A program made the translations under genes and the position numbers. From contig NC_092581.1 of the NCBI RefSeq assembly GCF_037975245.1, forward strand, positions 8,929,303-8,993,302: DNA of 64,000 nucleotides, read 5' to 3'. The notes under the pieces were generated by a model, which was not told the DNA's origin, did no database searches, and saw only the letters and a program-made list of their open reading frames with translations. This stretch comes from Apostichopus japonicus (taxonomy: Eukaryota; Echinodermata; Holothuroidea; Aspidochirotida; Stichopodidae). This document shows, one piece after another, positions 19,168 through 52,735 of the stretch. The number at the start of each line of letters is the position of its first letter. The first letter of the stretch is position 1.

Positions 19168-21060
19168 TCAATGACAAGTTCTAGCATATTGTGGTCAAAT
19201 ACTGTTGCTCTGAAATGTTAAAATATTCGTTGTACTCCAGTTTATTTGCTGTAAGATGTTTCGCTTGAAATAATCCTTTTCGACATATATACATGATCTG
19301 TTAGTTCAAATAAGCAAGAGTTGTATTTGTATCATGTGAATCAGTTTTCGCTATGAACTTCATAAAAGAGCAGTGTTTTCATCTATCATGAAACAGTATT
19401 TAAGTTGCCTTAGTTTACTATAGAAAGAACTACATGAAAATTGTTACAAGTGTGTATAAATCAGCACAAACTATGGGACTGGTCGACTTTCTTCTCTACC
19501 GGGCTGCCATTCCCCCTCAACTCTCAACTACCCCCCCCCCCCTTCCCAATAATGCCTTGAAGCATTGTGAATCGACTATGAATCAACGGCAAACAATGAC
19601 TAGCTGGAACGACTTTTCTTGCTGCAGGGGTTGATGAAACAGACAACAGCAACAAAAAACACGAACAAGTGAAATACACATATAATTTTTATTTATTTTG
19701 GAAACAAAACAATACAGGACGAAACTGACAAGTTTTAACCATTTCTGGAGCCTTGAAACAATGTTTTAATTTTTTTTTATTTCTTTATTTAAAAAAATAT
19801 TAATATGGACATTCTGATTTCCTTGAACGACGTCTGGCCTTCTTCTTGCGCTTTTTGGGTTGTTTTGCCTGGATGGCTTGATCAGCCCTCTTTTTAGCTT
19901 CGATTTCATCAGCTAGACGACAGGCTCTTTCCCTTCTGAGTACATAATCTGTTGTATCCTCTACCACCAGTAATGTCCTGAGAGAGACAAGGCACAAAAC
20001 ATTAAAATATAATATGGATACAGAACATGAGAGGAATGCACATATCGTAGATGGGGTTTATGATTGTTCCACGCTATTTGATCTTTGTTTTTACCATTTT
20101 ATAAAATTAATCATTTTAAGGAATTTGAAAATATAATCATATTATTTTTAATGTACTATAAACGTGGCATGTAGCCAAATGCTTTGGTAAAGGCCTGTTT
20201 TCCTATTCGAACGTAACAAAATGGTTCTCCCGTTGAAGGTTTTATGAACGAATTAGAATAACTCACGTGTACTCAGACATGGTCTCGTCAAAGGTTGATT
20301 TGTAGCCGAAGTTAGCCTCGTTAGTGGCAAACATATCACTGACTTCCCAGCTTTCAACCTGTGAATATTAACAATGATAATGAAAAACGTTATATTCACA
20401 GGGGTTTGATGTATTGATAACATTCGCAAGTATGTTATGTTATGTTGTGTAGTGCTATATTTGGAATTGGCAGAAATGGAAATATCATGGTCAACATTGT
20501 AACAGAATGGAAAACATCAAATTAATTGTACTTGTTATTTGCATGTTATGTACCTCATCTAAATCCAGGCCATTGTCGGTTACGTCACTAGGCCCCACCC
20601 ACTTGACCAGTTCTTTTGGTCTGATTGGAACAGGGTGTTGCAGTTCGACAAAATCGTCGTCGTAGAGAAAAGCTGTCGTGAAAAATTAACATATCATTAA
20701 CATTCAAAGAAGCAAGAAAATCTTCCCCTGTCGGTCAGCTGAATATTCGAGGCACTGAACTCGAATGTGACGTCATAATATACCCGGCGTGCTGTGACAC
20801 TAGAAAACTTGGGGCAAATTTACCCCCAATTCCCTTCTCTCACCATTAAAATGAAATGGTGAGATAGTAATGTCACCTGGTAACTTGTGAATATGTATAG
20901 TGAGATGCTCTTAAACTTTCAGTATGTGTGAAAATTAAACTCTTACTATGTTTTACTTCTATCCTAAGAAGTTAAAATAAGTTTAATGACTATTCTGTAA
21001 ATCTGATATTTACATGCAATTTAGTAGTTTCACAAGGAAACCCCACGACTCCCACCTATC

Positions 21061-21755
21061 AACCCACGCATTACACCACACCAAATCATACCATACTACA
21101 CCATACCATACCACATTATATCATATCTTACCATACCGTACCATTTATACATACCATACCATATATTACCATACAATACCACACTAAACCACACCACACT
21201 AAACCACACCACATCATACAATATTACACCATACCACATCACATTACCATACAGTACCCATCTATACAAACCATTCCATATAATACCATACCATACCACA
21301 CTAAACCACACCACATTAAACCACACCACATCATACCATATAACGCCATACTATACCACATCATATCATATCTTACCATACCGTACCATCTATACATACC
21401 ATACCATATAATAACATACAACACTAAACCACACCACACCACATCGTACCATAGCACACCATACCATACTACATCATACCATTCTACACTATACCATACC
21501 ACATCATATCATATCTAACCATACCGTACCATCTATACATACAATACCATACCATGTAACACCATACCATTCCACACTAAACCACACCACACTAAACCAC
21601 ACCAAATTATACCATATTACACCATAGCATACCACAATATATTATATAATACCATACCGTACCATCTATACATACCATACCATATAATACCATACCATAC
21701 CACACTAAACCACACCACACTAAGCCACACCACATCATATCACACAATACCAATC
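21061..21755. repeat. Pentanucleotide-rich satellite (accat/accac) in intron 17 of copy A
   Basis: Long run of imperfect ccata and ccaca units with larger-scale repetition of a cataccgtaccatctatacat block. It lies between exons 17 and 18. Homologous shorter arrays occupy the same intron in copies B (about 33171-33463) and C (about 45891-46172). Apparent reading frames rich in W, Y, M and V across it are artefacts of the repeat. Confidence 0.9.
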
Positions 21756-22013
21756 TTAATCTAGCCAAGCAAAGATATTTCATCTTACCGTGAGAATGTT
21801 CAGTTTCTCCTTTCTCATCACCGTTTTCTTGGGATGTGCCCAGACTAATGACGTCAGTCTGTTGTTGCTTACAGCTGTAAATGATTATAATATAAGCCAT
21901 AAATAATTCAGTCACTGACGTCACGCAGTAATATTAAATTGGGTTCCATTTAGTACGCTGGCAAAAATATTCTTGTGTCGATAAACCTTCAATGAAATAT
22001 ATGATAATAGGGA

Positions 22014-22070
22014 GATGGGGTGGGGTTGGGTGGGGTTTGGTGGGGGGGCGGGGTCGGGGGGAGTGAATCC
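22014..22070 (+). repeat. G-rich tract, possible quadruplex former
   Basis: Many runs of three to seven G on the + strand, which is the template strand of copy A, within the intron after the fourth module. Equivalent tracts lie at about 23232-23262, 33722-33765, 34937-34977, 46428-46462 and 47635-47685, i.e. after modules 3 and 4 of all three gene copies. Tract length differs between copies. Confidence 0.7.
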
Positions 22071-22155
22071 CTCGTTTATCTTCTTTTAACTGTTTTCGAT
22101 ACTACCTTTGAACCACTACCTACACAATCTAGTTTGCATTACTCCTTTTACTTAC

Positions 22156-24060
22156 CTCTCACTGACTGCGGTGGTGTTTAAACTAGATTGTTCTTCGCTG
22201 TCCACAATAACTGTTTCATCAGCGACAATCTGTCATCAAATGAGAAAATATTTCAAAATAACGATTTGCTTAAAACATACTTTAGATTCATTGTGAAAGT
22301 TTAACTCAAACAGTTAAGTAACGATTTTATTCATACGTAACATAACAACTGCAACGTGTAAAAATCGTAAATAAATAACAAATTAACTTTTGCTTCATGT
22401 TAGCTATTAAATTTGACTTTTATCTCATAAAATGCTATATACATCCTAACCTGTGTTTGAGCACCAACAACTTTAAAGAACTCTGCAGGGATGCTTAGTT
22501 CAGTAATCCTGCGGTAATCCATGTAAATCGGGGCAGCAGAGATGGTTTGGCACATCCGGGCAACGTCACAAGCAACTGTTGAAAAGAAGTGACACCAACA
22601 TTAATACTAAATAATACTCCCAAAATATTTGACATGTTAATTAAAAGTAAAATATCGCTTAACTAATTCGTCTGCTTTTCTTCGCTCTTTTACGCTTTTA
22701 TTAAACGTTGACGATGTCAACATTATAAGAAAGATGCGATGGAAAATATTAATATGATAAACTGCGAGACTGACTATTATCTCACCTGTGAGGTCAAGGG
22801 TCAACCCATGGAAGAATCGAGGTCGATAAAGCACAACTTCTTTTCCTGTTGTAAAGCGATCCCTGTGTTTAAAACAAAAAATATACCCAAAGAGTGAAGC
22901 AGCAAAGAAAGTACTTAGATAATAATGCAATGATTAATAAAGTTTTTCCAAATCTTTTTGTGATAATATTTGATCCTATAATTTAACATTACCAGCAATT
23001 ACTCCTGTTCACGAAATTAAGCAAGTGTCATATTTATAGAATACTTGAATATTTTTCAATTTAATGAGTGGTTTTGTTTCAATTCTATGCCATCCGTTTA
23101 CTCAATTATAATATAAGCCATAAATAATTCAATCACTGACGTCACGCAGTAATATTAAATTGGGTTCCATTTAGTACGCTGGCAAAATTATTCGTGTGTC
23201 GATAAACCTTTAATGAGATATATGATAATAGGGAGAGAGGGTGGGGTGGGTGGGGTAGTGAATCCCTCGTTTATCTTCCTTTAACTGTTTTCGATACTAC
23301 CTTTGAACCACTACCTACAGAATGTAGTTTGTATTACTCGTTTTACTTACCTCTCACTGACTGCGGTGGTGTTTAAACTAGATTGTTCTTCGCTGTCCAC
23401 AATAACTGTTTCATCAGCGGCAATCTGTAATCAAATGAGTAAATATTTTAATAAAACGATTTGCTTAAAAGATACTATAGATTTATTGTGAAAGTTAAAC
23501 TCAAACAATTAAGTTACGATTTTGTTCATACGTAACATTACAACTGCAACGTGTAAAAATCGTAAAAAAATTAACAAATTAACTTTTGCTTCATGTTAGC
23601 TATTAAATTTGACTTTTATCTCATAAAATGCTATATACATCCTAACCTGTGTTTGAGCACCAATAACTTTTAAGAATTCTGCAGGGATGCTTAGTTCAGT
23701 AATCCTGCGGTAATCCATGTAAATCGGGGAAGCAGAGATGGTTTGGCACATCCGGGCAACGTCACAAGCAACTGTTGAAAAGAAGTGACACCAACATTAA
23801 TACTTAATAATACTCCCAAAATATTTGACATGTTAATTAAAAGTAAAATATCGCTTAACTAATTCGTCTGCTTTTCTTCGCTCTTTTACGCTTTTATTAA
23901 ACGTTGACGATGTCAACATGATAAGAAAGATGCGACGGAAAGTATATTGATATGATAAACTGCGAGACTGTCTATTATCTCACCTGTGAGGTCAAGGGTC
24001 AGCCCATGGAAGAATCGAGGTCGATAAAGCACAACTTCTTTTCCTGTTGTAAAACGATCC
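22156..24060 (-). repeat. Nested ~1.2-kb tandem duplication of a three-exon module (copy A)
   Basis: Exons 11-13 (24060-23984, 23771-23647, 23424-23351) and exons 14-16 (22862-22786, 22575-22451, 22229-22156) have identical lengths (77, 125, 74 nt). They are offset by about 1195-1198 bp, and the introns are alike too. The same arrangement is in copy B (35775-33858, offset about 1210) and copy C (48468-46559, offset about 1219), so the nested duplication predates the unit triplication. Confidence 0.9.
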
Positions 24061-27000
24061 CTGTGTTTAAAACAAAAATTATACTCAAAGAGTTAAGCAG
24101 CAAAGAAAGTACTAAGATAATAATGCAATGATTAATAAAGTTTTGTCCAAATCTTTTTATGATGAATTTTGATCCTATAATTTAATATTACCAGCAATTA
24201 CTTCTGTTCACGAAATTAAGCATTACGTGCAAGTGTAATATTTATAGAATACTTGAATATTTTCCAATTTAATGAGTGGTGTTGTTTCAATTATATGCCC
24301 ATCCGTGTACTTACCTTGCTGTAGATGGAACAGGAGTCTCCACAAGTCCTTTTTCGTTGTCCACAAAAATTGTTTCATCAACGAGAACCTAAGAAGCAGA
24401 CATAAATTTAAGTACTTTAAAACAAATTTGATAGTCCAACATAACAAGATATGAAATTGAGCACAACTGACGTTAATATCTTCGTCAAACAAAATCTTTT
24501 AACGGTAGTTTAAGATAAAAAATAAGGTTTACCTGTTTAAGATCACCAAAGTATCCAAAGTGAACTAGGGGGATGGTCCGAGGGTGTCTGGTATTGAAGA
24601 CACCAATAGAGGGCAGCAATCATGATATCGAATGCCCGGGCAACGTCACAAGCAGCTGTTGAAAAGAGAAGGCAAGACGTCATGACTCGATAATGGTGAA
24701 GTGACGTACGCATGCTCAGATTATATAAATACTCCTACAATTCATGTAATCTTCTCCGCATTAAAGGCATCCAATTGATCATCACAAATTTCGTATTGTT
24801 TACTCCTAATGTATTCAAAACTATTCTTTTTTTTTACAGTTAATGCTATTAACGTTAGCATGCAGCTGATGAGTGCATTTCATAACTAAAAACACATAAC
24901 TTAAATTAGCTTCAGCAGTTAATCTGTTAATTACAAGACCAACTTCAACACGATAATTCAGGCCTAATATGCCTCTGCTTTCCTGGCCTAAATATAGACA
25001 AGTTGATGATGATATTTCATCTACTGGTAAGGGGTACACTGGTCTAGGTTAAGTAGCTCACCTGAGACGTCAAGAGTCAAGCCAAATAGTAAATGAGGGC
25101 GGTACAGCATCACTGATGTAATTTCATTCCTGGAAAAGGAACGGAATTTTAACAAAAACAGCAATTATAGAAAGAAATAATCTAAACGCTGTATTATACA
25201 AAGTTTCAATAAGTTCATTATATTTGAGCTAGGATGTTCACATATTATTGCTGACTATAACCTTTTCTCCTTACCTGTTAGCAGCTGCATCCCTTCTCTC
25301 AACCAGTTGTTCTTCGCTGTCCACCAAAATTGTTTCATCAGCGACAACCTGCAAAAGCAGAAAAAATATATAATTTGTCATTTTACGTCAATATTTTAGT
25401 TTCAAGTATAATATTCGGCATCACAACATCATATCCATTGATTCTGCAAGTAAACTCAGGCACCTCCCTCACCTTAAAGAGAAGGTTTTCTCTTGTATCA
25501 AGATGGATAGCCTTGGGTTCCTTCAGATCTTGAAGTACTTTACTGACAGCCATGATGGTATCCAAGAACCGAGCAAGGTCAAGAGCAGCTGTGAAGAGAA
25601 ATGGTGACGTCATTAAACACATCTGGATGTCAATGTTTCTGTCGATAATTGTTAACATTAAAACCGTAAATTGTCAAACTTAAATGTTCACTCTTCTCTG
25701 TGATGCTATTACACCTTAGCTATACATATTCACCTGATATGATCCAGCTCTATCTTCACATATAATTAAGTCTATATTATATTTTATTTATTGAATATAT
25801 GGCTGACCTAACAGGTGGAATGGGAGGAAACTAAATTCGAAAAATTAAACAAATTTCCCATATTACCCACCCCCTACATCCCGACACCCTCCCTTGCACT
25901 ACACCCGTCTTAAGTAATTTCCATTCCTACTTCTAACGCTATGCAATGTATTAAAGCATCTTTCCGAGTTAAGTCGTAATTTTGGCAATTTACCAAACTT
26001 ACCGAAAATATGATGAAGGGTAATTATTCTATGATACTTCTTTTTCATTTTTCTCACCAAATGATTAATTAATGGATCAATTTATGGTGTTTTAGTATAT
26101 TAATAGGATATACAAAGCAAATGGGACATATTAAACATATTGTGTTCATTATTTGAACTAAACTTTTAAACTTGTCTTAAGCTTTTTTGAAGGCACGTTT
26201 CGTGGTACAATATTACTTATGTGTATATGACTCACCAGTAACATCAACTCGACGGTGTGGTAAACCGACCGGTGGTCTGTAAAGAACGAGTTCTTTTCCG
26301 GTTGTCAGTATATCGCTAGATATAAATAAAAACATATGAGTAACTACATTTCCTTCAAGCGATTTATTTTCCAAAATGAATGTTCTAGAGTATGAGTTTT
26401 AGAAATAAAGAGACTGAAAATTAAAAAGGAACTCACGTGGTCAAGGTCAATCCTAGGTCAATGGGTGGGAGAGGAAAAAGACAGAAGAGGACTTTCCTTG
26501 CGGCAAACGGGTCCTGTAATATATAGAGAAAATTCAATCAAAATATCTAATTTATAATCCAATGATGAATTGATAAGTTATTGACCATATTGATTGAAAA
26601 GTGAGGGCGCTAGCATTAACTTAATTGGTTAATTTGTTAGTGTTAGTTTGCTATATATATACCGGGACTAAAGACTTTTATAATTTACCAAGATTTCAGG
26701 AAGATCTTCTACTTGAGATGTTGTTCTGTTCATCTTGTTGATTCTGATCTTCTTCAGATAACGAAGAATATGTTTTCTTTGTCGGGCATGAGTCTCCACT
26801 TTTAACAGAAACATAAATATTAAGCTTGTAAATAATGTGCAATAACATCAGTTTATTTACTATATTTTACATAATTAATATGTTAGATTGAGAGAATCGG
26901 AAGGGGTTGGACCTCCCTCATTCACTTATTGTAAAAATACAAAACTGAGACGTGTCCGTCAAGTACTGACAGAATATTTATCTTTGGCCGCTGCAATTAT

Positions 27001-27861
27001 TTCGCCAGTATAGTCATATTATATAATGGCAACTCCATACATAAAATCTACATCTTCAATATACTTTTGTAACACATTATATATGAAAAGAGAACGAAAT
27101 AATTAAATATAAACTTACTTCCTCGGATCTCTCTAAGCAGTCTCTTCGCACACCTCTTCTTAGTCTTCCCGAAGTCGTTGCCTTTTATTAATAAAAGATA
27201 GAGTTATTTATGCTTCGATAACAGGCTCATATATTTATTTTTTTTAATTTGTTAACGATTAAGTTAGGTATGCGCGATTCATTAAAATCCGAGAGCACTT
27301 CATTTATCAAAATTAAGTATCACCTATAGGCCTATAACAAATTTGGGAAATAATATGTGTGCATGGGAAGGGTACTTTATTTGTACCATTCAGATCGATG
27401 GTGCATGTATAAGGTTGCTTACAAGATGGTCAAAAGGCATCAATGCCACCGCTCCCTCCATCTATACCCCATCCCACTCTCACTCCCACCACTCCCACCA
27501 CCCCTACTCTGGCCGCCATCCACTCTTGAGTGCACCTTGTTATTTTAGTGATTGTTGTCCTAGTCTAGCTTCATTCATGTTTATTATATTTCAATTCATG
27601 TAACTCTGGTGCAATATCGATGTCCCATTCCTAATATTACAATAAGATCTACCATTGCAACGAGAACATTCACTGAGGTTAACTTAAAACACTGGCAATT
27701 GTTGAACCACTTTACCTATAATCTCACGTTAAAATAACAAGAAAATTATTCCACTCACCGACTCCATCTCGCCATTTTTCTCGGATGCTGATCATTAATG
27801 CCTCAACGAGAGCAAGAAGCAAGATAATAACTAAAGCTAATAGTTCAATAAGCAGTATCAT

Positions 27862-30108: not shown

Positions 30109-30330
30109 TTATATTTGCAGACATTAACCGAAACCAAGAGTATTCAATTAATTCGTATGCTTGACTACTGGTTATCAAATATACCAATTCTCAATATATA
30201 TACATACCAACTCTTGTGCACGTTGTGATGAAAACTACTGACCATAAGGGCATGCATACAATAAACAGTTGGTAAGCTACTTTACTGATTGTTTTGGTTC
30301 TCCAAAATATTAAGGGACATTGGGTGGTGT

Positions 30331-31902: not shown

Positions 31903-34900
31903 TCAATATGGACATTCTGATTTCCTTGATCGACGTCGGGCCTTCTTCTTACGCTTTTTGGGTTGTTTTGCCTGGATGGCTTGATCAGCCCTCTTTTTAG
32001 CTTCGATTTCATCAGCTAGACGACAGGCTCTTTCCCTTCTGAGTACATAATCTGTTGTATCTTCTACCACCAGTAATGTCCTGAGAGAGACAAGGCACAA
32101 AACATTAAAATATAATATGGAGACAGAACATGAGAGGAATGCACATATCGTAGATGAGGTATATGAATGTTCCACGCTATTTGATCTTTGTTTTTACCAT
32201 TTTATAAAATTAATCATTTTAAGGAATTTGAAAATATAATCATATTATTTTAAATGTACTATAAACGTGGCATGTAGCCAAATGCTTTGGTAAAGGCCTG
32301 TTTTCCTATTCGAATGTAACAAAATGGTTCTCCAGTTGATGGTTTTATGAACGAATTAGAATAACTCACGTGTACTCAGACATGGTCTCGTCAAAGGTTG
32401 ATTTGTAGCCGAAGTTAGCCTCGTTAGTGGCAAACATATCACTGACTTCCCAGCTTTCAACCTGTGAATATTAACAATGATAATGAAAAACGTTGTTTTC
32501 ACAGCGGTTTGATGTATTGATAACATTCGCAAGTGTGTTATGTTATGTTGTGTAGTGCTATATTTGGAATTGGCAGAAATGGAAATATCATGGTCAACCT
32601 TTTAACAGAATGGAAAACATCAAAACAATTGTACTTGTTATTTGCATGTTATGTACCTCATCTAAATCCAGGCCATTGTCGGTTACGTCACTAGGCCCCA
32701 CCCACTTGACCAGTTCTCTTGGTCTGATTGGAACGGGGGGTTGCAGTTCGACAAAATCGTCGTCGTAGAGAAAAGCTGTTGTAAAAAATGAAAATATCGT
32801 TAACATTCAAAGAAGCAAGAAAATCTTCCCCTGTCGGTCAGCTGAATGTTCGAGGCACTGAACTCGAATGTGACGTCATAATATACCCGGCGTGCTGTGA
32901 CACTAGAAAACTTGGGGCAAATTTACCCCCAATTCCCTTCTCTCACCATTAAAATGAAATGGTGAGATATTAATGTCGCCTGGTAACTTGTGAATAGGTA
33001 TAGTTAGAGGCTCTAAAACTTTCAGAATGTGTGAAAATAAAACTCTTACTATGTTTTACTTCTATCCTAAGAAGTTAAAATAAGTTTAACGACTATTCTG
33101 TAAATCTGATATTTACATGCAATTTACTAGTTTTACAAGGAAACCTCATGACTCCCACCCATCAACCCACGCATTACATCACACCAAATCCTACCATACC
33201 ATACCATACAACATATCATACCACATCATATAATATTATATTTTGCCATACCGTACCATCTATACATACCATACCATACCACATAATACCATACCACACT
33301 AAACCACACCACACCAAACCACACCATACCATATTATACCGTACCATACCACATCACATCATATCTTACCATACCGTACCATCTATACATACCATACCAC
33401 ATAATACCATACCACATTAAACCACACCACACTAAACCACACCACACCATATCACACAATACCAAACCTTAATCTAGCCAAGCAAAGATATTTTCATCTT
33501 ACCGTGAGAATGTTCAGTTTCTCCTTTCTCATCATCGTTTACTTGGGATGTGCCCAGACTTATGACGTCATTCTGTTGTTGTTTACAGCTGTAATGATTA
33601 TAATATAAGTCATAAATAATCCAGTCACTAACGTTACGCATAATATTTAATTGGGTTCTCATTGAGTAAGCTGGCAAAAATATTCGTGTGTCGATAAACC
33701 TTTAATGACAATTTTGATAGTAGGGAGAGAGGGGTGGGTTGGGTGGGTTGGGTGGGGGGGGTGAGTGAATCCCTCGTTTATCTTCCTTTGACTGCTAACG
33801 CTACTACCTTTGAACCACTACCTACATAATATATTTTGCATTACTCCTTTTACCTACCTCTCACTGACTGCGGTGGTGTTTAAACTAGATTGTTCATCGC
33901 TGTCCACAATAACTGTTTCATCAGCGACAATCTGTCATCAAATGAGAAAATATTTAAAAATAACGATTTTGCTTAAAACATACTTTAGATTCATTGTGAA
34001 AGTTTAACTCAAACAGTTAAGTAACGATTTTATTCATATGTAACATTACAACTGCAACGTGTAAAAATCGTAAATAAATAACAAATTAACTTTTGCTTCA
34101 TGTTAGCTATTAAATTTGACTTTTATCTCATAAAATGCTATTACATCCTAACCTGTGTTTGAGCACCAACAACTTTAAAGAACTCTGCAGGGATGCTTAG
34201 TTCAGTAATCCTGCGGTAATCCATGTAAATCGGGGAAGCAGAGATGGTTTGGCACATTCGGGCAACGTCACAAGCAACTGTTGAAAAGAAGTGACACCAA
34301 CATTAATACTTAATAATACTCCCAAAATATTTGACATGTTAATTAAAAGTAAAATATCGCTTAACTAATTCGTCTGCTTTTCTTCGCTCTTTTACGCTTT
34401 CATTAAGCGTTGATGATGTCAACATTATAAGAAAGATGCGAAGGAAAGTATTGATATGATAAACTGTGAGACTGTCTATTATCTCACCTGTGAGGTCAAG
34501 GTTCAATCCATGGAAGAATCGAGGTCGATAAAGCACAACTTCTTTTCCTGTTGTAAAACGATCCCTGTGTTTAAAACAAAAATTATACCCAAAGAGTGAA
34601 GCAGCTAAGAAAGTACTTAGATAATAATGCAATGATTAATAAAGTTTTTCGAAATCTTTTTGTGATAATATTTGATCCTATAATTTAACATTACCAGCAA
34701 TTACTCCTGTTCACGAAATTAAGCAAGTGTCATGTTTATAGAATACTTGAATATTTTCCAATTTAATGAGTGGTTTTGTTTCAATTCTATGCCCATCCGT
34801 TTACTTAATTATATATGACATTAATAATTCAGTCACTGACGTCACGCAGTAATATTAAATTGGATTCCATTTAGTACGCTGGCAAAATTATTCGTGTGTC

Positions 34901-37900
34901 GATAAACCTTTAATGAGATATATGATAATACGGAGAGAGGGGTTGGGTGCGGTTGGATGGGGGGGGGGGCGGGGGAGTGAATCCCTCGTTTATCTTCCTT
35001 TAACTGTTTTCGATACTACCTTTGAACCACTACCTACAATGTAGTTTGTATTAATCATTTTACTTACCTCTCACTGACTGCGGTGGTGTTTAAACTAGAT
35101 TGTTCATCGCTGTCCACAATAACTGTTTCATCAGCGACAATCTGTCATCAAATGAGACAATATTTAAAAATAACGATATGCTTAAAACATACTTTAGATT
35201 CATTGTGAAAGTTACACTCAAACAGTTAAGTAACCATTTTTTTCCCCATACGTAACATTACAACTGCAACGTGTAAAAATCGTAAATAAATAGCAAATTA
35301 ACTTTGCTTCAATATTAGCTATTAAATTTGACTCTTATCTCTTAAAATGATTTACATCCTAACCTGTGTTTGAGCACCAATTACTTTAAAGAAATCTGCA
35401 GGGATGCTTAGTTCAGTAATTCTGCGGTAATCGATATAAATCGGTGCAACAGAGATGGTTTGGCACATCCGGGCAACGTCACAAGCAACTGTTGAAAAGA
35501 AGTGACACCAACATTAATACTTAATAATACTCCCAAAATATTTGACATGTTAATTAAAAGTAAAATATCGCTTAACTAATTCGTCTGCTTTTCTTCGCTC
35601 TTTTACGCTTTTATTAAACGTTGACGATGTCAACATGATAAGAAAGATGCGACGGAAAGTATTGATATGATAAACTGCGAGACTGTCTATTATCTCACCT
35701 GTGAGGTCAAGGGTCAGCCCATGGGAGAATCGAGGTCGATAAAGCACAACTTCTTTTCCTGTTGTAAAACGATCCCTGTGTTTAAAACAAAAATTATACC
35801 CAAAGAGTTAAGCAGCAAAGAAAGTACTAAGATAATAATGCAATGATTAATAAAGTTTTGTCCAAATCTTTTTATGATGAATTTTGATCCTATAATTTAA
35901 TATTACCAGCAATTACTTCTGTTCACGAAATTAAGCATTACGTGCAAGTGTAATATTTATAAAATATTTTCCAATTTAATGAGTGGTGTTGTTTCAATTA
36001 TATGCCCATCCGTGTACTTACCTTGCTGTAGATGGAACAGGAGTCTCCACAAGTCCTTTTTCGTTGTCCACAAAAATTGTTTCATCAACGAGAACCTAAG
36101 AAGCAGACATAAATTTAAGTACTTTAAAACAAATTTGATAGTCCAACATAACAAGATATGAAATTGAGCACAACTGACGTTAATATCTTCGTCAAACAAA
36201 ATCTTTTAACGATAGTTTAAGATAAAAAATAAGGTTTACCTGTTTAAGATCACCAAAGTATCCAAAGTGAACTAGGGGGATGGTCTGGTCCGAGGGTGTC
36301 TGGCATTGAAGACACCAATAGAGGGCAGCAATCATGATATCGAATGCCCGGGCAACGTCACAAGCAGCTGTTGAAAAGCGAAGGCAAGACGTCATGACTC
36401 GATAATGGTGAAGTGACGTACGCATGCTCAGATTATATAAATACTCCTACAATGCATGTAATCTTCTCCGCATTAATAGCATCCAATTAATCATCACAAA
36501 TTTCGTATTGTTTACTCCTAATGTATTCAAAACTATTCTCTTTTTTTTTTACAGTTAATGCTATTAACGTTAGCATGCAGCTGATGAGTGCATTTCATAA
36601 CTAAAAACACATAACTTAAATTAGCTTCAGCAGTTAATCTGTTAATTACAAGACCAACTTCAACACAATAATTCAGGCCTAATATGCCTCTGCTTTCCTG
36701 GCCTAAATATAGACAAGTTGATGATGATATTTCATCTACTGGTAAAGGGTACGCTGGTCTAGGTTAAGTAGCTCACCTGAGACGTCAAGAGTCAAGCCAA
36801 ATAGTAAATGAGGGCGGTACAGCATCACTGATGTAATTTCATTTCTGGAAAAGGAACGGAATTTTAACAAAAACAGCAATTATAGAAAGAAATAATCTAA
36901 ACGCTGTATTATACAAAGTTTCAATAAGTTCATCATATTTGAGCTAGGATGTTAACATATTATTGCTGACTATAACCTTTTCTCCTTACCTGTTATTGCT
37001 GATTACAATTTTGTCTCCTTACCTGTTAGCAGCTGCATCCCTTCTCTCAACCAGTTTTTCTTCGCTGTCCACAAGAATTGTTTCATCGGCGACAACCTGC
37101 AAGAGCAGAAAAAAATAAAATTGTCATTTTACGTCAATATTTTAGTTTCGAGTATAATATTCGGCGTTACAACATCATATCCATTGTAAACTGCAGGTAA
37201 ACTCAACCACCGCCCTCACCTTAAAGAGAAGGTTTTCTCTTGTATCAAGATGGATAGCCTTGAGTTCCTTCAGATCTTGAAGTACTTTACTGGCAACCAT
37301 GATGGTATCCAAGAACCGAGCAAGGTCAAGAGCAGCTGTGAAGAGAAATGGTGACGTCATTAAACACATCTGGATGTCAATGTTTCTGTCGATAATTGTT
37401 AACATTAAAACCGTAAATGGTCAAACTTAAATGTTCACTCTTCTCTGTGATGCTATTACACCTTAGCTATACATATTCACCTGATATGATCCAGCCCTAT
37501 CTTCACATAGAACTAAGTCTATATTTTATTTTATTTATTGAGTATATGGCTGACCTAACAGGTGGAATGGTAGGAAACTAATTCTTAATATTAAACAAAT
37601 TTCCCGCCAGCTCCCCCCCCCCCCCGACACTCCCCCTCACTTCCCCCGTCTTCAGTCATTTCCATTCTCACTTCTAACACTGTGCGATGTATTAAAGCAA
37701 CTTTCCGAGTTAAGTCGTCATTTTGGCAATTTTACCAAACTTACCGAAAATATGATTAAGGGTCATTATTCTATGATACTTCTTTTTTATTTTTCTCACC
37801 AAATGATTACTTAATGGATCAATTTATAGTGTTTTAGTATATTAATAGGAGATACAAAGCAAATGGGACATATTAAACATATTTGTGCTCATTATTTGAA

Positions 37901-39636
37901 CTAAACCTTTAAACTTGTCAAAAGCTTATTTGAAGGCACGTTTCGTGGTACAATATTACTTATGTGTATAAAGACTCACCAGTAACATCAACTCGACGGT
38001 GTGGTAAACCGACCGGTGGTCTGTAAAGAACGAGTTCCTTTCCGGTTGTCAGTATATCGCTAGATATAAATAAAAACATGTGGTTAACTACATTTCCTTC
38101 CAGCAATTTATTTTTCCAAAATGAATGTTCTAGAGTGTGAGTTTTAGAAATAAAGAGATTGAAAATTAGAAAGGAACTCACGTGGTCAAGGTCAATCCAA
38201 GGTCAATGGGTGGGAGAGGAAAGAGACAGAAGAGGAATTTCCTTGCGGCAAACTGGTCCTGTTGAATATATAGAAAATGCAATCAAAAATATCTAATTTA
38301 TAATCCAATGATGATTGATAAGTTATTGATTATATCGCTTGAAAGTGAGGGCGCTAGCATTAGTTTATTTCATTCCTTGATTAATTGTTAGTGTTATTTT
38401 GCTGTATATAATATACCGGGACTAAAGACTTTTATAATTTACCAAGATTTCAGGAAGATCTTCTACATGAGATGTTGTTCTATTCATCTTGTTGATTCTG
38501 ATCTTCTTCAGATAACGAAGAATATGTTTTCTTTGCCGGGCATGAGTCTCCACTTTTAACAGAAAGATATATATTGAGCTTGTAAATAATGTGTAATAAC
38601 ATCAGTTTGGTACTATATTTAACATAATTAATATGTTTGAATGTGAGAATTGGAATGGGGTTTGACCTCCATCATTCACTTATTTTAAAAATACAGAACT
38701 ATGACGTGTCCGTCAATTACTGACATAATATTTATCTTTGGCTGCTGCAATTCTTTCGCCAGTATAGTACTAGTATATAATGGCAACTCCATACATAAAA
38801 TCTACATCTTCAATATACTTTTGTAACACAATACATATGAAAAGAGAACGAAATAATGAACATAAACTTACTTCCTCGGATCTCTCTGATCAGTCTCTTC
38901 GCACACCTCTTCTTAGTCTTCCCGAAGTCGTTGCCTTTTATTAATAAAAGATAGAGTTATTTATGCTTCGATAACAGGCTCATATACTTATATTTTGAAT
39001 TTGTTTACGATTCAGTTAGGTATGCACGATTCATTAAAATCCGAGAGCACTACATTTATCAAAATTAAGTATCACCAAGGCCTATAACAAATTTGGGAAA
39101 TAATATGTGTGCTTCGGAAGGGTACTTTGTATACTCCAATCAGCTCGATTATGCATGTATAAGGTTGCTAACAAGATAGTCTAGGAGCATCAATGCCACC
39201 GCTCCCTCCATCTATACCCCATTCCCACTCTCACCACTCCCACTCCCACCACTCCATCTCCCACCACCCCAACTCCAACCACCTCCTACTCTAGCCGCCA
39301 TCCACCATTGAGTGCACCATGTTGTTTTAGTGATTATTGTCCTAGTCTATTATATTTATTATATTTCAATTCATGTAACTCTGGTGCAATATCGATGTCC
39401 CAATCTTAATATTACAATAAGACCTACCATCGCAACGGCGACATTCTCTGAGGTTAACTTAAAACACTGGCAAAGGTTGAACCACTTTACCTATAATCTC
39501 ACGTTAAAATAAGAAGAAAATCATTCCACTCACCGACTCCATCTCGCCATTTTTCTCGGATGCTGATCATCAATGCCTCAACGAGAGCAAGAAGCAAGAT
39601 AAGAACTATAGCTAATAGTTCAATAAGCAGTATCAT
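31903..39636 (-). CDS. Uncharacterised modular membrane-anchored protein, copy B (intact)
   Basis: Family not recognised. Twenty exons: 39636-39534, 38934-38872, 38552-38443, 38258-38182, 38059-37980, 37335-37220, 37096-37023, 36844-36777, 36367-36240, 36095-36022, 35775-35699, 35488-35364, 35141-35068, 34564-34488, 34277-34153, 33931-33858, 33588-33503, 32775-32657, 32461-32370, 32080-31903 (TGA). Total 1920 nt, 639 residues, phases consistent. Exon 1 encodes a hydrophobic anchor of about 20 residues (from MILLIELLA). Exons 2-4 are Lys/Arg-rich, then a hydrophobic LPPIDLGLTL segment. Exons 5-16 are four modules of three exons each: (a) GKELVLYRP...DVTG, (b) ALDLAR or ACDVAR start, (c) V-ADET-VDSEE. 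Exons 17-19 are acidic and exon 20 ends in KKRKKKARRR. Positive charge after the anchor suggests a cytoplasmic C-terminus. An in-frame ATG across the exon 2/3 junction could give an anchorless form. Confidence 0.85.
33171..33463. repeat. Pentanucleotide-rich array in intron 17 of copy B
   Basis: Imperfect accat/accac repeats, shorter than in copy A, at the equivalent intronic position. Confidence 0.85.
36984..37049 (-). repeat. 33-bp tandem duplication copying the exon-7 splice donor (copy B)
   Basis: The sequence attgctgactataaccttttctccttacctgtt is repeated directly with small changes, giving two cttacctgtt (minus: AACAG|GTAAG) donors 33 bp apart. Copy C has the same doubling (about 49660-49723); copy A has one donor. 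Using the more intronic donor would add an in-frame TAA right after AACAGG. Confidence 0.8.
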
Positions 39637-40700
39637 GGTTAAAACTCTTCGAGATAAAACACAACTAGATCGCTGTATGTATCAATATGAATTGATTGTA
39701 CAGTACGTGGAAAGATTATTTGTACACAAAACTTAAGGTTTTATGTGTGACGAAATAAAGAGAACTGAGAACTGTGCGTGATCATGCGCTTATCATAGTA
39801 TGCGTTCGTATTGCAAAGATGTTGTATCTGCTTTAGTATACAGTAGTAGTAGTAAGTTGAGTCTCGTCTATTCGACATGCTCAGTGATTAACCTCCGCCA
39901 CGTTTTACGATCTTGCGCAAGGTTTATTGCTTCCTCGAAACTGTTAATATTAATGTCCTTGAATTGCGACTTTATTTTTCCAAGCAAGATAGTCACGGGC
40001 CTTCCAACTGGTTTAGCAGTATGTCTCAGTGCTTCTCTTAGAGCAACCTTTGCTGGAGCGTCCTCTTGGAGTCTTGCTACATGACCGAAAAATCTCAATC
40101 TTCTATGTGCGACTATCGATGACCAAGGTGTTTGGTTGGTTTCGTTGTAGAGCTCATCATTTGATAACCAATTATTATTGGTCCATCTAATGTTGAGAAT
40201 ATTTCGAAGTAGTCTCCTTTGAAAAGTGTCAATTTTGCGATCAAGATCCTTCGTTGTGCCCCACAGTTGTGTTTAGTATACACATGTAGTTTAATCTGGT
40301 TGCGTTGATTCGACGCAGATTAATTATTGCGTGTACCCATGCGTTGCTTGTGCTGTCACTGGTTACTAGTAGTGATCGCTGAGGCGCTGTAACATATCGC
40401 TGCTTTGAACCCGTACTGTCATTCACGCGTTCGTGTTTACAGATACCGCGTGCGCGCGTTCTCAACTTTATAGCGCACAATGTCCGTCACCAAAATTGAC
40501 GTCACTCATGAACGACCCTGGTCATTTACACGTGATGAGAATATTTTGCAGCTTTCTACATGTTCCAGACTATTGTGATCTCTGTATGAACAGCCGGTGT
40601 CAGTTGGTTATAAAAGCATGCGGCTGTTAGAATGTAATTTTGACGACGATCGAGATATTGTAATGATATGATCAAGAGGTGTTGGTATTGACGTATCGAG
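39637..40700 (-). promoter_or_regulatory. Putative promoter region of copy B, split by a LINE fragment
   Basis: Homologous to the copy A upstream region, with CpG-rich ccgcgtgcgcgcgttctc (from 40446) and TGACGTCA at 40497-40504. A 429-bp insertion separates these elements from the ATG-proximal 200 bp, moving the CRE-type site from about 430 bp to about 860 bp upstream of the start codon. Confidence 0.4.
39843..40271 (-). mobile_element. 5'-truncated LINE fragment (reverse transcriptase C-terminal part)
   Basis: The minus strand of 40098-39868 encodes a protein starting RFFGHVARLQED, then KPVGRP and EEAINLAQDRKTWRRL. This is the typical C-terminal segment of LINE ORF2 proteins (FGHV-R motif and LA-DR--WR motif). 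The fragment is flanked by an 11-bp direct repeat tttagtataca (39832-39842 and 40272-40282). On the minus strand its 3' end is an (ACT)n tail instead of poly(A), as in some LINE clades. It is absent from the equivalent places upstream of copies A and C, where the empty site is visible (near 28060 for A). Confidence 0.85.
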
Positions 40701-44627: not shown

Positions 44628-47600
44628 TTAATATGGACATTCTGATTTCCTTGATCGACGTCGGGCCTTCTTCTTACGCTTTTTGGGTTGTTTTGCCTGG
44701 ATGGCTTGATCAGCCCTCTTTTTAGCTTCGATTTCATCAGCTAGACGACAGGCTCTTTCCCTTCTAAGTACATAATCTGTTGTATCTTCTACCACCAATA
44801 ATGTCCTGAGAGAGACAAAACATTAAAATATAATATGGAGACAGAACATGAGAGGAATGCACATATCGTAGATGGGGTTTATGATTGTTCCACGCTATTT
44901 GATCTTTGTTTATGCCATTTTATAAAATTAATCATTTTAAGGAATTTGAAAATATAATCATATTATTTTGAATGTACTATAAACGTGGCATGTAGCCAAA
45001 TGCTTTGGTAAAGGCCTGTTTTCCTATTCGAATGTAACAAAATGGTTCTCCAGTTGAAGGTTTTATGAACGAATTAGAATAACTCACGTGTACTCAGACA
45101 TGGTCTCGTCAAAGGTTGATTTGTAGCCGAAGTTAGCCTCGTTAGTGGCAAACATATCACTGACTTCCCAGCTTTCAACCTGTGAATATTAACAATGATA
45201 ATGAAAAACGTATTCACAGCGGTTTGATGTCTTGATAACATTCGCAACTATGTTATGTAATGTTGTGTTGTGCTATATTTGGAATTGGCAGAAATGGAAA
45301 TATCATGGTCAACATTGTAACAGAATGGAAAACATCAAAACAATTGTACTTGTTATTTGCATGTTATGTACCTCATCTAAATCCAGGCCATTGTCGGTTA
45401 CGTCACTAGGCACCACCCACTTGACCAGTTCTCTTGGTCTGATTGGAACGGGCGGTTGCAGTTCGACAAAATCGTCGTCGTAGAGAAAAGCTGTTGTAAA
45501 GAAAGAAAATATCGTTAACATTCAAAGAAGCAAGAAAATCTTCCCCTGTCGGTCAGCTGAATGTTCGAGGCACTGAACTCGAATGTGGCGTCATAATATA
45601 CCCGGCGTGCTTTGACACTAGAAAACTTGGGGCAATTTTACCCCCAATTCCCTTCTCTCACCATTAAAATGAAATGGTGAGTTAATAATGTCACTTGGTA
45701 ACTTGTGAATAGGTATAGTGAGAGGCTCTTAAACTTTCAGAATGTGTGAAAATAAAACTCTTACTACATGTTTTACCTCTATCCTAAGAAGTTAAAATAA
45801 GTTTAAATGACTTATTCTGTAAATCCGATATTTACATGCAATTTACTAGTTTTACAAGGAAATCTCATGACTCCCACCCATCAACCCACGCATTACACCA
45901 CACCAAATCATACCATACCATACTACACCATACCATACCACATCAAATCATATCTTACCATACCGTACCATCTATACATACCATACCACATAATACCATA
46001 CCACACCGCAGTAAACCACACCACCTCGTACAATATTACTCCGTACCATACCACATCATAACTTATCTTACCATACCGTACAATATTACACCACACCATA
46101 TAATACCATACCATACCACATTAAGCCACACCACACTAAGCCACGCCACATCATATCACAATACCAATCTTAATCCAGCCAAGCCAAGATATTTCATCTT
46201 ACCGTGAGAATGTTCAGTTTCTCCTTTCTCATCATCGTTTACTTGGGATGTGCCCAGACTTATGACGTCAGTCTGTTGTTGTTTGCAACTGTAAATGATT
46301 ATAATATATGCCATAAATAATCCAGTCACTGATGTCACTCATTATATTAAATTGGGTTCTCATTGAGTACGCTGGCAAATTTATTCGTGTGTCGATAGAC
46401 TCTTCATGTAAAGTATGATAATAGGGAGAGAGGGTGGGGTTGGGTGGGGGGGGGGGCTGGAGAGTGAATCCCTCGTTTTTATCTTCCTTTGACTGCTAAC
46501 GCTGCTACCTTTGAACCTCTGCCTACATTATATATTTTGCATTAATCATTTTTCTTACCTCTCACTGACTGCGTTGGTATTTAAACTAGATTGTTCTTCG
46601 CCCTCCACAATAACTGTTTCATCAACGACAATCTGTCATTAAATGAGAAAATTTTTAAAATTAACTATTTGCTTAAAACATTCTTTAGATTTATTGTGAA
46701 AGTCAAACTTAAAAAGTTAAGTTATGATTTTGTTCATACGTAACATTCCAACTGCAACGTGTAAAAATCGTAAATAATTAACAAATTAACTTTTGCTTCA
46801 TGTTAGCTATTAAATTTGACTTTTATCTCTTAAAATGCTATTACATCCTAACCTGTGTTTGAGCACCAATAACTTTTAAGAACTCTGCAGGGATGCTTAG
46901 TTCAGTAATCCTGCGGTAATCCATGTAAATCGGGGCAGCATAGATGGTTTGGCACATCCGGGCAACATCACAAGCAACTGTTGAAAAGAAGTGACACCAA
47001 AATTAATACCAAATAATAATACCAAATATTTGACATGTTAATTAAAAATAAAATATCTCTTAACTAACCCGTCTGCTTTCTTCGATTTCTTATACTTTTA
47101 TTAAACGTTGATGATGTCAACATTATAAGAAAGATGCGAAGGAAAGTATTGATATGATAAACTGCGAGACTGCCTATTATCTCACCTGTGAGGTCAAGGG
47201 TCAACCCATGGAAGAATCGAGGTCGATAAAGCACAACTTCTTTTCCTGTTGTAGAACAATCCCTGTGATTAAAACAAAAATTATACCCACGGCGTGAAGC
47301 AGCAAAGAAAGTACTTAGATAATAACGCAATGATTAATAAAGTTTTTTTTCCAAATCTTTTTGTGATAATTTTTGATCCTATAATTTAACATTACCAGCA
47401 TTTATTCCTGTTCACGAAATTAAGCAAGTGTCATATTTATAGAATACTTGAATATTTTCCAATTTAATGAGTGGTTTTGTTTCAAATCTTTGCCCATCCG
47501 TTTACTTACTTATATATGCCATAAATATTTCAGTCACTGACGTCACGCAGTAATATTAAATTGGGTTCCATTTAGTACGCTGGCAAAATTATTCGTGTGT

Positions 47601-50600
47601 CGATAAACCTTTAATGAAATATATGATATTAGGGAGAGAGGGGTGGGGTTGGGTGGGGTTGGGTGGGGGGGGGGGGTGGGGGGAGTGAATCCCTCGTTTA
47701 TCTTACTTTAACTGTTTTCGATACTACCTTCGAACCACTACCTACAGAATCTAGTTTGCATTACTCATTTTACTTACCTCTCACTGACTGCGGTGGTGTT
47801 TAAACTAGATTGTTCTTCGCTGTCCACAATAACTGTTTCATCAGCGACAATCTGTCATCAAATGAGTAAATATTTAAAAATAACGATTTGCTTAAAACAT
47901 ACTTTGGATGTATTGTGAAAGTTAAACTCAAACAGTAAAGTAACGATTTTTTCATACGTAACATTACAACTGCAACGTTAAAAATCGTAAATAAATAACA
48001 AATTAATTTTGCTTTAGCTATTAAATTTGACTCTTATCTCTTAAAATGATTCACATCTTAACCTGTGTTTGAGCACCAATAACTTTAAAGAACTCTGTAG
48101 GAATGCTTATTTCAGTAACCCTGCAGTAATCCGTGTAAATCGGGGCAGCCGCGATGGTTTGGCACATCCGGAAAACGTCACAAGCAACTGTTGAAAAGAA
48201 GTGACACTAAAATTAATACCAAATAATAATACCAAATATTTGACATTTTCATTAAAGAAAAATATCTCTTAACTAATCCGTCTGCTTTCTTCGGTTTCTT
48301 ATACTATAGTATTAAATATTGATGATGTCAACATTATAAGAAAGATGCGAAGTATTGATATGATAAACTGCGAGATTGCCTATTATCTCACCTGTGAGGT
48401 CAAGGGTCAACCCATGAAAGAAACGAGGTCGATAAAGCACAACTTCTTTTCCTGTTGTAGAACAATCCCTGTGTTTTAAACAAAAATTATACCCAAAATG
48501 TGAAGCAGCAAAGAAAGTACTTAGATAATAATGCAATGATTAATTTTTTTTCCAAAATCTTTTGATGATAAATTTTGATCCTTTAATTTAATATTACCAG
48601 CAATAACTACTGTTCACGAAATTAAGCATTACGTGCAAGTGTAATATTTAAAGAATACTTGAATATTTTCTAATTTAATGAGTGGTGTTGTTTCAATTCT
48701 ATGCCCATCCGTGTACTTACCTTGCTGTAGATGGAATAGGAGTCTCCACAAGTCCTTTTTCGTTGTCCACAAAAATTGTTTCATCAACGAGAACCTAAGA
48801 AGCAGACATAAATTTAAGTACTTTATAACAAAATTGATAGTCTAACATAACAAGATATGAAACTGAGCACAACTGACGTAAATATCTTCGTCAAACAAAA
48901 TCTTTTAACGATAGGTTAAGATAAAAAAAAAAGGTTTACCTGTTTAAGATCACCAAAGTATCCAAAGTGAACTGGGGGGATGGTCTGGTCCGAGGGTGTC
49001 TGGTATTGAAGACACCAATAGAGGGCAGCAATCATGATATCGAATGCCCGGGCAACGTCACAAGCAGCTGTTGAAAAGAGAAGGCAAGACGTTAAGACTG
49101 GATAATGGTGAAGTGACGTACGCATGCTCAGATTATGTAAACACTCCTACAATTCATGTCATCTTCTCTGCATTAATGGCATCCAATTAATCATCACAAA
49201 TATCGTATTGTTAATTGTTTACTCCTAATTTATTCAAGAATATTCTTTACTATAAGTTATGTTATTAACATTAGCATACAGGTGATGGCTGCATTTCATA
49301 ACTAAAAACACATAACTTAATTTGGCTTCAGCAGTTAAACTACCAAGACCAACTTCAACAGAATAATTCAGGCCTAATATGCCTCTGCTTTCCTGACCTA
49401 AATATGGACTAGGTAATGATAATATTTCATCTACTTGTAAAGGGTACACTGGTTTAGGTTAAGTAGCTCACCTGAGACGTCAAGAGTCAAGCCAAATAGT
49501 AAATGAGGGCGGTACAGCACTACTGATGTAATTTCATTCCTGGAAAAGGAACGGAATTTTAACAAATTCAGCAATTATAGAAAAAAGTAATCTAAACGCT
49601 GTATTAGACAAAGTTTCAATAAGTTCATCATATGTGAACTAGGATTTTAACATATGATTGCTGATTACAATATTTTCTCCTTACCTGTTATTGCTGATTA
49701 CAATATTTTCTTCTTACCTGTTAGCAGCTGCATCCCTTCTCTCAACCAGTTGTTCTTCGCTGTCCACAAAAATTGTTTCATCAGCGACAACCTGCAAAAG
49801 CAGAAAAAAATATATAATTTGTCATTTAACGTAAATATTTTAGTTTCAGGTATAATATTCGGCATCACAACATCATATCCATTGATTCTGCAAGTAAACT
49901 CAGGCGCCTCCCTCACCTTAAAGAGAAAGTTTTCTCTTGTATCAAGATGGATAGCCGTGGGTTCCTTCAGATCTTGAAGTACTTTACTGGCAGCCATGAT
50001 GGTATCCAAGAACCGAGCAAGGTCAAGAGCAGCTGTGAAGAGAAATGGTGACGTCATTAACCACGTCTGGATGTCAATGTTTCTGTCGATAATTGTTAAC
50101 ATTAAAACCGTAAATTGTCAAACTTAAATGTTCACTCTTCTCTGTGATGCTATTACACCTGATATGATCCAGCCCTATCTTCACATAGAATTAAGTCTAT
50201 ATTATATTTTATTTATTGAATATATGGCTGACCTAACAGGTGGAATGGGAGGAAACTAAATTCGAAAAATTAAACAAATTTCCCGTATTATACCCACCCC
50301 CTACACCCCGACAACCTCCCTTGCACTACCCCCGTCTTCAGTAATTTCCATTCTTACTTCTAACGCTATGCAATTTAAAGCAACTTTCCGAGTTAAGTCG
50401 TAATTTTGGCAATTTTACCAAACTTATCGAAAATATGATTAAGGGTTATTATTCTATGATACTTCTTTTTTATTTTTCTCACCAAATGATTACTTAATGG
50501 ATCAATTTATAGTGTTTTAGTATATTAATAGGAGATACAAAGCAAATGGGACATATTAAACATATTGTGTTCATTATTTGAACTAAACCTTTAAACTTGT

Positions 50601-52303
50601 CAAAAGCTTATTTGAAGACACGTTTCGTGGAACAATATTACTTATGTTTATAAAGACTCACCAGTAACATCAACTCGACGGTGTGGTAAACCGACCGGTG
50701 GTCTGTTAAGAACGAGTTCCTTTCCGGTTGTCAGTATATCGCTAGATATAAATAAAATCATGTGGTTAACTGCATTTCCTTCAAGCAATTTATTTTTCCA
50801 AAATGAATGTTCTAGAGTGTGAGTTTTAGAAATAAAGAGACTGAAAATTAGAAAGGAACTCACGTGGTCAAGGTCAATCCAAGGTCAATAGATGGGAGAG
50901 GAAAAAGACAGAAGAGGAATTTCCTTGCGGCAAACTGGTCCTGTTGAATATATAGAAAATGCAATCAAAATATCAAATTTATTATCCAATGATGATTGAT
51001 AAGTTATTGATTATATCACTTGAAAGTGAGGGCGCTAGCATTAATTTATTTCATTCTTAGGTTAATTGTTAGTGTTAGTTTGCTATATATATATACCGGG
51101 ACTAAAGACTTTTATAATTTACCAAGATTTCAGGAAGATCTTCTACTTGAGATGTTGTTCTGTTCATCTTGTTGATTCTGATCTTCTTCAGATAACGAAG
51201 AATATGTTTTCTTTGTCGGGCATGAGTCTCCACTTTTAACAGAATGATAAATATTGAGCTTGTAAATAATGTGCAATAACATAATAAAAAAACATAATGT
51301 GCAATAACATTTTATATAATTAATATGTTAGAATGTGAGAATTGGAAGGGGGTTTGACATCCCTCATTCACTTATTGTAAAAATACAAAACTAAGACGTG
51401 TCCGTCAAGTACTGACATAATATTTATCTTTGGCTGCTGCAATTATTTCGCCAGTATAATCATATTATATAATGGCAACACTATACATAAAATTACATCT
51501 TCAATATACTTTTGTGAAACAATATATATGAAAAGAGAACGAAATAATGAAATATAAACTTACTTCCTCGGATCTCTCTGATCAGTCTCTTCGCACACCT
51601 CTTCTTAGTCTTCCCGAAGTCGTTGCCTTTCATTAATAACAGATAGAGTTATTTATGCTTCGATAACAGGCTCATATAGTTATATTTTGAATTTGTTAAC
51701 GATTAAGTTAGGGTATGCACGATTCATTAAAATCCGAGAGCACTTCATTTATCAAAATTAAGTATCACCTAGGCCTATAACAAATTTGGGAAATAATATG
51801 TGTGCATGAGAAGGGTACTTCATTTATACCATTCAGATCGATGGTGCATGTATAAGGTTGCTTACAAGATGGTCAAAGGGCATCAATGCCACCGCTCCCT
51901 CCATCTCCACCCCATCCCACTCCCACAACCCTACTCTAACCACCCCCTACTCAGCCGCCATCCACTGTTGAGTGCACCATATTGTTTTAGTGACTGTTGT
52001 TCTAGTCTACTTTAATTCGTGTTTATTATATTTCAATTCATATAACTCTGGTGCAATATCGATGTCCCATTCTTAATATTACAATAAGACCTACCATCGC
52101 AACGAGAACATTCTCCGAAGTTAACTTAAAACACTGGCAAAGGTTGAACCACTTTACCTATAATCTCACGTTAAAATAAGAAGAAAATCATTCTACTCAC
52201 CGACTCCATCTCGCCATTTTTCTCGGATGCTGATCATTAATGCCTCAACGAGAGCAAGAAGCAAGATAAGAACTAAAGCTAATAGTTCAATAAGCAGTAT
52301 CAT
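44628..52303 (-). CDS. Uncharacterised modular membrane-anchored protein, copy C (intact)
   Basis: Twenty exons with the same lengths and phases as copy B: 52303-52201, 51626-51564, 51232-51123, 50940-50864, 50741-50662, 50032-49917, 49791-49718, 49539-49472, 49067-48940, 48794-48721, 48468-48392, 48187-48063, 47851-47778, 47262-47186, 46977-46853, 46632-46559, 46288-46203, 45490-45372, 45179-45088, 44805-44628 (TAA). Total 639 residues. The third module (exon 12, 48187-48063) is the most divergent: VFRMCQ replaces VARMCQ and DYCRVTEIS replaces DYRRITELS. Exon 16 has VEGEEQ where the others have VDSEEQ or VDSDEQ. Exon 18 has WVVPSD instead of WVGPSD. These differences suggest it is not simply a recent assembly duplicate. 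Function unknown. Confidence 0.85.
45891..46172. repeat. Pentanucleotide-rich array in intron 17 of copy C
   Basis: Imperfect accat/accac repeats at the same intronic place as in copies A and B. Confidence 0.85.
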
Positions 52304-52735
52304 GGTTAAAACTCTTCGAGATAAAACACAACTATATCGCTGTATGTATCAATATGAATTGATTGTACAGTACGTGGAAAGTTTATTTGTACACAAAACT
52401 AAAGGTTTTATGTGTGACGAAATAGAGTACTGAGAACTGTGCGTGATGTGCGCGTATCATAGTATGCGTTTGTATTGCAAAGATTTTGTATCTGGTTTGG
52501 TATACACATGGAAATTAAACTGGTTGATTCGACGCAGATTAATGTTATTGCGTGTACCCATGCGTTGCTTTTGCTGTCACGGGTTACTAGTAGAGATCGC
52601 TGAGGTGCTGTAACATATCGCTGCTTTGAACCCGTACCGTCATGTCACGCGTTCGTGCTTACGTATACCGCGTGCGCGCGTTCTCAACTTTGTAGCGCAC
52701 AATGTCCGTCACCAAAATTTACGTCACTCGGGAAA
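52304..52735 (-). promoter_or_regulatory. Putative promoter region of copy C
   Basis: Homologous to the copy A and B upstream regions, with ccgcgtgcgcgcgttctc near 52668. The CRE-type palindrome is altered to TTACGTCA (52719-52726). Homology to the other promoters ends a few bases later. Confidence 0.35.

Follow-up and report, generated by a model that had tools for sequence, protein, structure and literature searches.

A duplicated gene family of the sea cucumber Apostichopus japonicus with a very probable ataxin-2-derived LsmAD tail behind a predicted membrane anchor and repeated modules

What kind of protein is encoded by three similar units lying one after another on a single contig of the sea cucumber Apostichopus japonicus is the question raised by the stretch of 64,000 nucleotides analysed here (the window; C21:8929303-8993302, contig C21 being NC_092581.1 of assembly GCF_037975245.1). 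The original prediction described a tandem triplication of a 20-exon modular gene that matched no named family. LsmAD is the hallmark of ataxin-2, and exons 18-20 of this gene almost certainly share descent with the ataxin-2 exons that encode its linker and LsmAD, as indicated by the LsmAD score, a BLASTP match, shared intron phases and invariant alignment columns. The family is not classed here as an ataxin-2, as an Sm domain and PAM2 were looked for and not found, but as an LsmAD protein of new architecture. The explanation favoured as a whole, which is probable though well short of secure, is a duplicated family in which an ataxin-2-derived tail has been joined to an anchor, a linker and modules, the product being a putative membrane adaptor.

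The window contains three direct-repeat units with spacings of about 11.7-12.1 and 12.7 kb in the repeat comparison, in line with the three tandem, same-orientation units proposed at the outset, and the coding strand of all three gene copies is the minus strand. A chain was accepted when its exons had exactly the 20 lengths, were bounded by AG/GT sites and kept consistent phases from an ATG to a stop. Full 20-exon chains are present on the minus strand in copies B and C, each with an open product of 639 amino acids, while a search of the plus strand of the window with the same 20 exon lengths found none, and a plus-strand gene was rejected. No full chain was found on the minus strand in copy A, where length, frame and splice sites are correct in 19 of the 20 exons and exon 9 is frameshifted; the proposed common exon set thus stands for B and C and falls short in A. 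Between copies A and B, the exon-class columns contain two indel events, with 11 gap columns in all, and both events presumably sit in exon 9, since the other exons keep their lengths. The three copies are as follows.

19800-27861, minus strand: copy A, the same gene, with exon 9 (from 24655 down) frameshifted and the other 19 exons in order
31903-39636, minus strand: copy B, 20 exons, 639 amino acids, comprising anchor, basic linker, four modules, acidic stretch, LsmAD and Lys/Arg tail
44628-52303, minus strand: copy C, 20 exons, 639 amino acids, exon lengths and phases identical to those of copy B

Copy B can be divided, from the N-terminus to the C-terminus, into the following parts.

39534-39636, minus strand: exon 1, hydrophobic N-terminal segment (from hydropathy)
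38443-38934, minus strand: exons 2-3, basic linker (from charge)
38182-38258, minus strand: exon 4, 77 nt, by eye like the first exon of a module in degenerate form
33858-38059, minus strand: exons 5-16, four three-exon modules (270, 270, 276 and 276 nt)
33503-33588, minus strand: exon 17, acidic linker (net charge -4) from the last module to the ataxin-2-derived part
31903-32775, minus strand: exons 18-20, the very probably ataxin-2-derived part (from Pfam, BLASTP, intron phases and alignment)

Exon 18 is aligned with the ataxin-2 exon that comes just after the Sm exons, while exons 19-20 encode LsmAD and the Lys/Arg tail ending SECPY. LsmAD (PF06741; residues 567-622) is the only Pfam domain of copy B to pass its cut-off, with 27.0 bits against a curated 25 bits, and it reaches 29.4 bits in the tail of copy C, 33.0 and 36.7 bits in two tails of subfamily II and 32.2 bits in one tail of subfamily III. 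The copy B tail shares 52% identity over 61 residues (BLASTP, E=2e-18) with the ataxin-2 of the same genome. Both genes have an intron of phase 1 in front of the linker exon, one of phase 0 where the linker and LsmAD exons meet, and one of phase 2 within LsmAD, and the intron within LsmAD falls in the identical codon of a gapless alignment. Five family tails aligned with ataxin-2 retain 31 invariant columns. The copy B product can be matched in part to a known family, in exons 18-20, and the earlier failure to name a family survives for the anchor, linker and modules, which have no recognised family in the Pfam, PDB, Sm and SDR16C comparisons; against PDB, the best match of copy B has E=0.24 and that of its LsmAD region E=0.57. 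A C-terminal end SECPY, SGCPY or EECPY (DECPY) is kept in the last exon of three subfamilies. Two weak Pfam matches were taken as chance, namely DUF7382 in copy B (13.8 bits against a cut-off of 27.4) and Chromo in subfamily III (18.5 bits against a cut-off of 25.1, over 12 residues).

One canonical ataxin-2 was found, at a separate locus on contig C15 near 17.594-17.600 Mb, and its core contains SM-ATX (41.5 bits) and LsmAD (50.1 bits; Pfam). Neither SM-ATX nor LSM was found by Pfam in full-length copy B. The PAM2 pattern, L.P.A..F.P, is absent from all seven joined family products, although LN..A, without the Phe, is present at module ends.

All three units are products of segmental duplication of a single member of an extensive gene family spread over several chromosomes. 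The local triplication is one cluster of this family, which has at least 29 places with a last-exon match. In the genome searched (671.6 Mb in 35 contigs) there are nine close loci: A, B and C of the window, X1 and X2 (C21:10.148-10.172 Mb), Y1, Y2 and Y3 (C21:10.292-10.326 Mb), and Z (C15 at 9.8 Mb). Open products with canonical sites are encoded by five of the nine (B, C, X1, X2 and Y2); A is frameshifted, Y3 has no AG before exon 7, and Z is rearranged, with head and tail on opposite strands and damaged exons. Seven loci were joined into products. Z was left out, as was Y1, whose first exon lies beyond the sequence retrieved and for which one of the module exons could not be located. Two more subfamilies, on C15 and C17, have the architecture partly in common, and more distant members or pieces, often broken, occur on C3, C9, C12, C13 and C19. 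Intact copies are found next to broken ones. A search with the subfamily III tail returned at least 93 rows, at least 30 of them last-exon matches, and the places with such matches lie on C12, C15, C17, C19 and C21; these counts are lower bounds. The matched stretch is free of stops at 27 of the 29 places, which is not equivalent to an intact gene. In a tree of 14 tails, subfamily I (100/99) and subfamily III (99/98) are supported, subfamily II is not supported as a group, and ataxin-2 forms a long branch of unsure placement. Retrocopies were rejected, as one search of the genome showed no match that spans several exons without introns or stops. Four equal-scoring exon-18-like matches on C9 (4527387, 4533440, 4539505 and 4545545), about 6.05 kb apart, may form a further tandem array of pieces of the family; one unit of it was looked at. 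A decayed relic also lies beside copy C.

53812-56012, plus strand: fourth copy, an inverted decayed relic in which exons 4, 9, 19 and 20 are matched

Between B and C, 58 indel events fall in introns and none in exons, where 18.9 would be expected at the intron rate, and the exon pattern is thus not due to chance; divergence is 3.65% in exons and 7.58% in introns. Introns of A, B and C differ by 5.8-7.8%, which, together with the further diverged copies elsewhere in the genome, argues against a single haplotype doubled. All three copies have an ACCAT-type minisatellite in part of intron 17 (21075-21739, 33192-33468 and 45897-46151), which is longest in copy A and coincides with a strong GC skew at 20-22 kb. 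At its 3' end, exon 7 contains a 33-nt unit in about two tandem copies in B (36960-37028) and C (49657-49723).

The N-terminal and module parts fit the hydrophobic N-terminus, basic linker, four modules and Lys/Arg tail first described, as far as hydropathy and charge are concerned. In copy B, the Kyte-Doolittle maximum (3.29 over 19 residues) is at the N-terminus, no hydropathy window starting after residue 25 exceeds 1.6, and there is accordingly a single hydrophobic segment able to span a membrane, for which insertion is predicted. Residues 36-92 have a net charge of +11, and the last 56 residues one of +10.

Each module comprises about 90 residues in three exons, with phase 2 at entry and exit and the internal pattern 2-1-0-2, and can be duplicated without breaking the frame, as its length is a multiple of three and both ends are in phase 2. 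There are four modules in A, B, C and X2, and five in X1, Y2 and Y3. In X1, the additional module most resembles its neighbours within the same gene (97.1 and 96.8%), whereas in Y2 and Y3 the modules at corresponding positions match each other (94.2, 98.3 and 98.5%), and the fifth module was therefore probably gained separately in X1 and in the Y lineage. Exons 17-19 have the same 2-1-0-2 phase pattern, a hint that the modules might be copies of them, but no sequence similarity is seen by eye. It is conceivable, though unlikely, that the whole ataxin-2 core was amplified, the modules being diverged SM-ATX domains and the protein a membrane-bound Sm chain ending in LsmAD, as the Sm exons of ataxin-2 lie directly upstream of its linker and LsmAD exons, where the modules now sit, and as the module (GKEVVLYRPRFFHGL...ACDV...IVADETVIVDS) recalls the Sm1/Sm2 pattern by eye. 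However, Pfam matched none of nine modules at E<=10 (HMMER filters drop most weak matches), and the best PDB match of a module by profile (E=0.49) is a flagellin regulator, not an Sm protein. The hhalign scores of the modules against a three-sequence Sm alignment (8.9) and against the ataxin-2 Sm region (8.3) are lower than the average of 200 column shuffles in each case (10.0 and 9.5, respectively), both profiles being shallow enough to miss a very distant relation, and the module phases (2-1-0-2) differ from those of the ataxin-2 Sm exons (0-0-1).

Substitution patterns indicate that purifying selection acts on the predicted protein, as had been anticipated from the constant exon lengths. 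The dN/dS ratio is 0.27-0.63 over the 21 pairs of the seven copies, with 0.17-0.67 in the last module and tail and 0.33-0.98 in the N-terminal part. This comparison omits exons 9-10 of copy A and, in every copy, the modules that lie after exon 10 and before the last one, since their number is not constant. Pooled over three non-overlapping pairs (A-B, X1-X2 and Y2-Y3, which include the broken copies A and Y3), 5.06% of synonymous and 2.00% of non-synonymous sites differ (p=9e-8). Tail dN/dS is 0.18-0.23 between subfamilies (five pairs), and 0.15, 0.30 and 0.59 within subfamilies II and III (three pairs). These values bear on the rather improbable suggestion that the genes form a fast-turnover host-defence family, in which module variation, chromosome clusters and broken copies would reflect an arms race. 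The birth-and-death pattern, with four or five modules and broken copies, and the less constrained N-terminal half are in its favour; nevertheless, dN/dS exceeds 1 in none of the 21 pairs, and Pfam identified no immune domain in copy B.

A very improbable origin of the anchor and modules is an SDR16C-type short-chain dehydrogenase, whose anchor and repeated first beta-alpha-beta would have been fused to an ataxin-2 tail. By eye the anchor and module look like an SDR16C N-terminus, SDR16C-like matches are numerous in the genome, and the anchor score was reached by only 6 of 150 shuffles. However, the modules scored 12.9 against eight SDR16C-like sequences (hhalign; eleven loci fetched, nine with a readable N-terminus, eight used, profiles shallow), a value reached by 24 of 150 shuffles, the module alignment falls outside the expected place, and adh_short matched none of nine modules. 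That an unrelated gene merely has a C-terminus resembling LsmAD, as the copy B score just 2 bits over the cut-off might allow, or that non-coding duplicates have accidental open frames, is hardly credible in view of LsmAD scores over the cut-off in three subfamilies, the ataxin-2 match with matching intron phases, the lack of B-C exon indels and dN/dS below 1.

Several observations weigh against the favoured explanation. The significant BLASTP alignment is limited to the LsmAD part, and the relation of exon 18 to ataxin-2 is drawn from the multiple alignment and the intron phases; introns 17/18 and 18/19 share the ataxin-2 phase, but gaps of a few residues in the alignment make their exact site uncertain. 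An LsmAD family search of the genome gave one candidate, ataxin-2 only, and we think that it missed the family since the domain is split over two exons. The exon joins of the 20-exon gene are predicted from sequence and conservation, and the membrane topology from hydropathy and charge. N-terminal dN/dS is as high as 0.98 in one pair (C-X1), and the ratio of 0.59 belongs to two subfamily III tails. As B-C dS (0.047) is below the B-C intron divergence (0.076), the exons may have been partly homogenised by gene conversion. Finally, the module fold matched nothing, which makes any function of the modules guesswork.

Other features were seen outside the gene family. Between B and C, an open stretch (39868-40272, minus strand) resembles by eye the C-terminus of the reverse transcriptase ORF of a LINE-type element. 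Exon-like open stretches at 57974-59863 (minus strand) resemble an SLC22-type transporter by eye, and three single pieces of them have no Pfam match at E<=0.01. Five COX1 pieces on C29 (14745-31219), besides the mitochondrial contig C35, are either nuclear mitochondrial DNA or an assembly fragment. The COX1 of C35 is an open frame of 517 residues whether read with genetic code 5, 9 or 13; code 9 (AAA=Asn, ATA=Ile), which echinoderms and flatworms use, is judged to be the right one, as it yields the residues expected at conserved COX1 positions.

According to the favoured explanation, exons derived from the ataxin-2 linker and LsmAD are joined downstream of a hydrophobic segment, a basic linker and symmetrical modules. 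The N-terminal segment may act as a signal anchor, and the bulk of the protein would be placed in the cytosol, as strongly basic residues come after the hydrophobic segment. LsmAD would be the working end, presented with the Lys/Arg-rich tail at the membrane surface, while the modules may serve as a spacer of variable repeat number or as a binding array. That the protein is a membrane-tethered LsmAD adaptor on the cytosolic face is a possibility held with low confidence, and the binding of DDX6 or RNA by its LsmAD is putative, by likeness to ataxin-2. A more tentative proposal, doubtful in its full extent, is that LsmAD escaped from ataxin-2 to become the C-terminal head of a membrane-anchored family, the members of which might be platforms recruiting translational repressors or coat machinery, with the module as a domain family present in no library.

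In comparison with ataxin-2 (ATXN2, ATXN2L and Pbp1; SM-ATX + LsmAD + PAM2), the family has in common LsmAD, the preceding linker exon and the intron phases, but it contains no recognisable SM-ATX or strict PAM2, ends soon after LsmAD, adds the N-terminal hydrophobic segment and four or five modules, and occupies many loci. Ataxin-2 orthologues with added domains are explained as probable transcriptional readthrough (PMC12898128); in these chimeras parts of ataxin-2 are joined to other domains, as in the present family, which differs in being a stand-alone duplicated gene with LsmAD and no recognisable Sm domain. The words 'transmembrane' and 'echinoderm' are absent from the main text of that paper, one figure legend of which gives sea urchins a single ataxin-2 copy. 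CID16 and CID17 of flowering plants are Ataxin-2 paralogues without LsmAD that keep Lsm and PAM2-related sequences (PMC4105795), and have thus lost a core domain as the present family has, although the domains kept are the reverse. In the survey of the same paper, every non-vertebrate animal surveyed has one Ataxin-2 gene, the sea urchin gene is placed, and LsmAD is found in all animal orthologues; as the Lsm domain was the bait, genes with LsmAD only would have been missed. No account of such a family was found in the portions of the literature on LsmAD or ataxin-2 in echinoderms, gene duplication and family expansion that were covered. LsmAD of ataxin-2 has been tied to a trans-Golgi signal, localisation and DDX6 binding (PMC4105795), and most ATXN2 is at the rough ER (PMC12898128).

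What LsmAD does alone is an open question in ataxin-2 biology, which includes spinocerebellar ataxia type 2 (SCA2) and amyotrophic lateral sclerosis (ALS), and in which the roles at membranes are not easily told apart from those in RNA regulation. At the last-exon places of this family LsmAD occurs while neither an Sm domain nor PAM2 can be recognised, which provides a natural experiment on LsmAD alone, and the symmetrical three-exon module, in four or five copies, illustrates the gain of repeats cleanly and may be a domain not described before.

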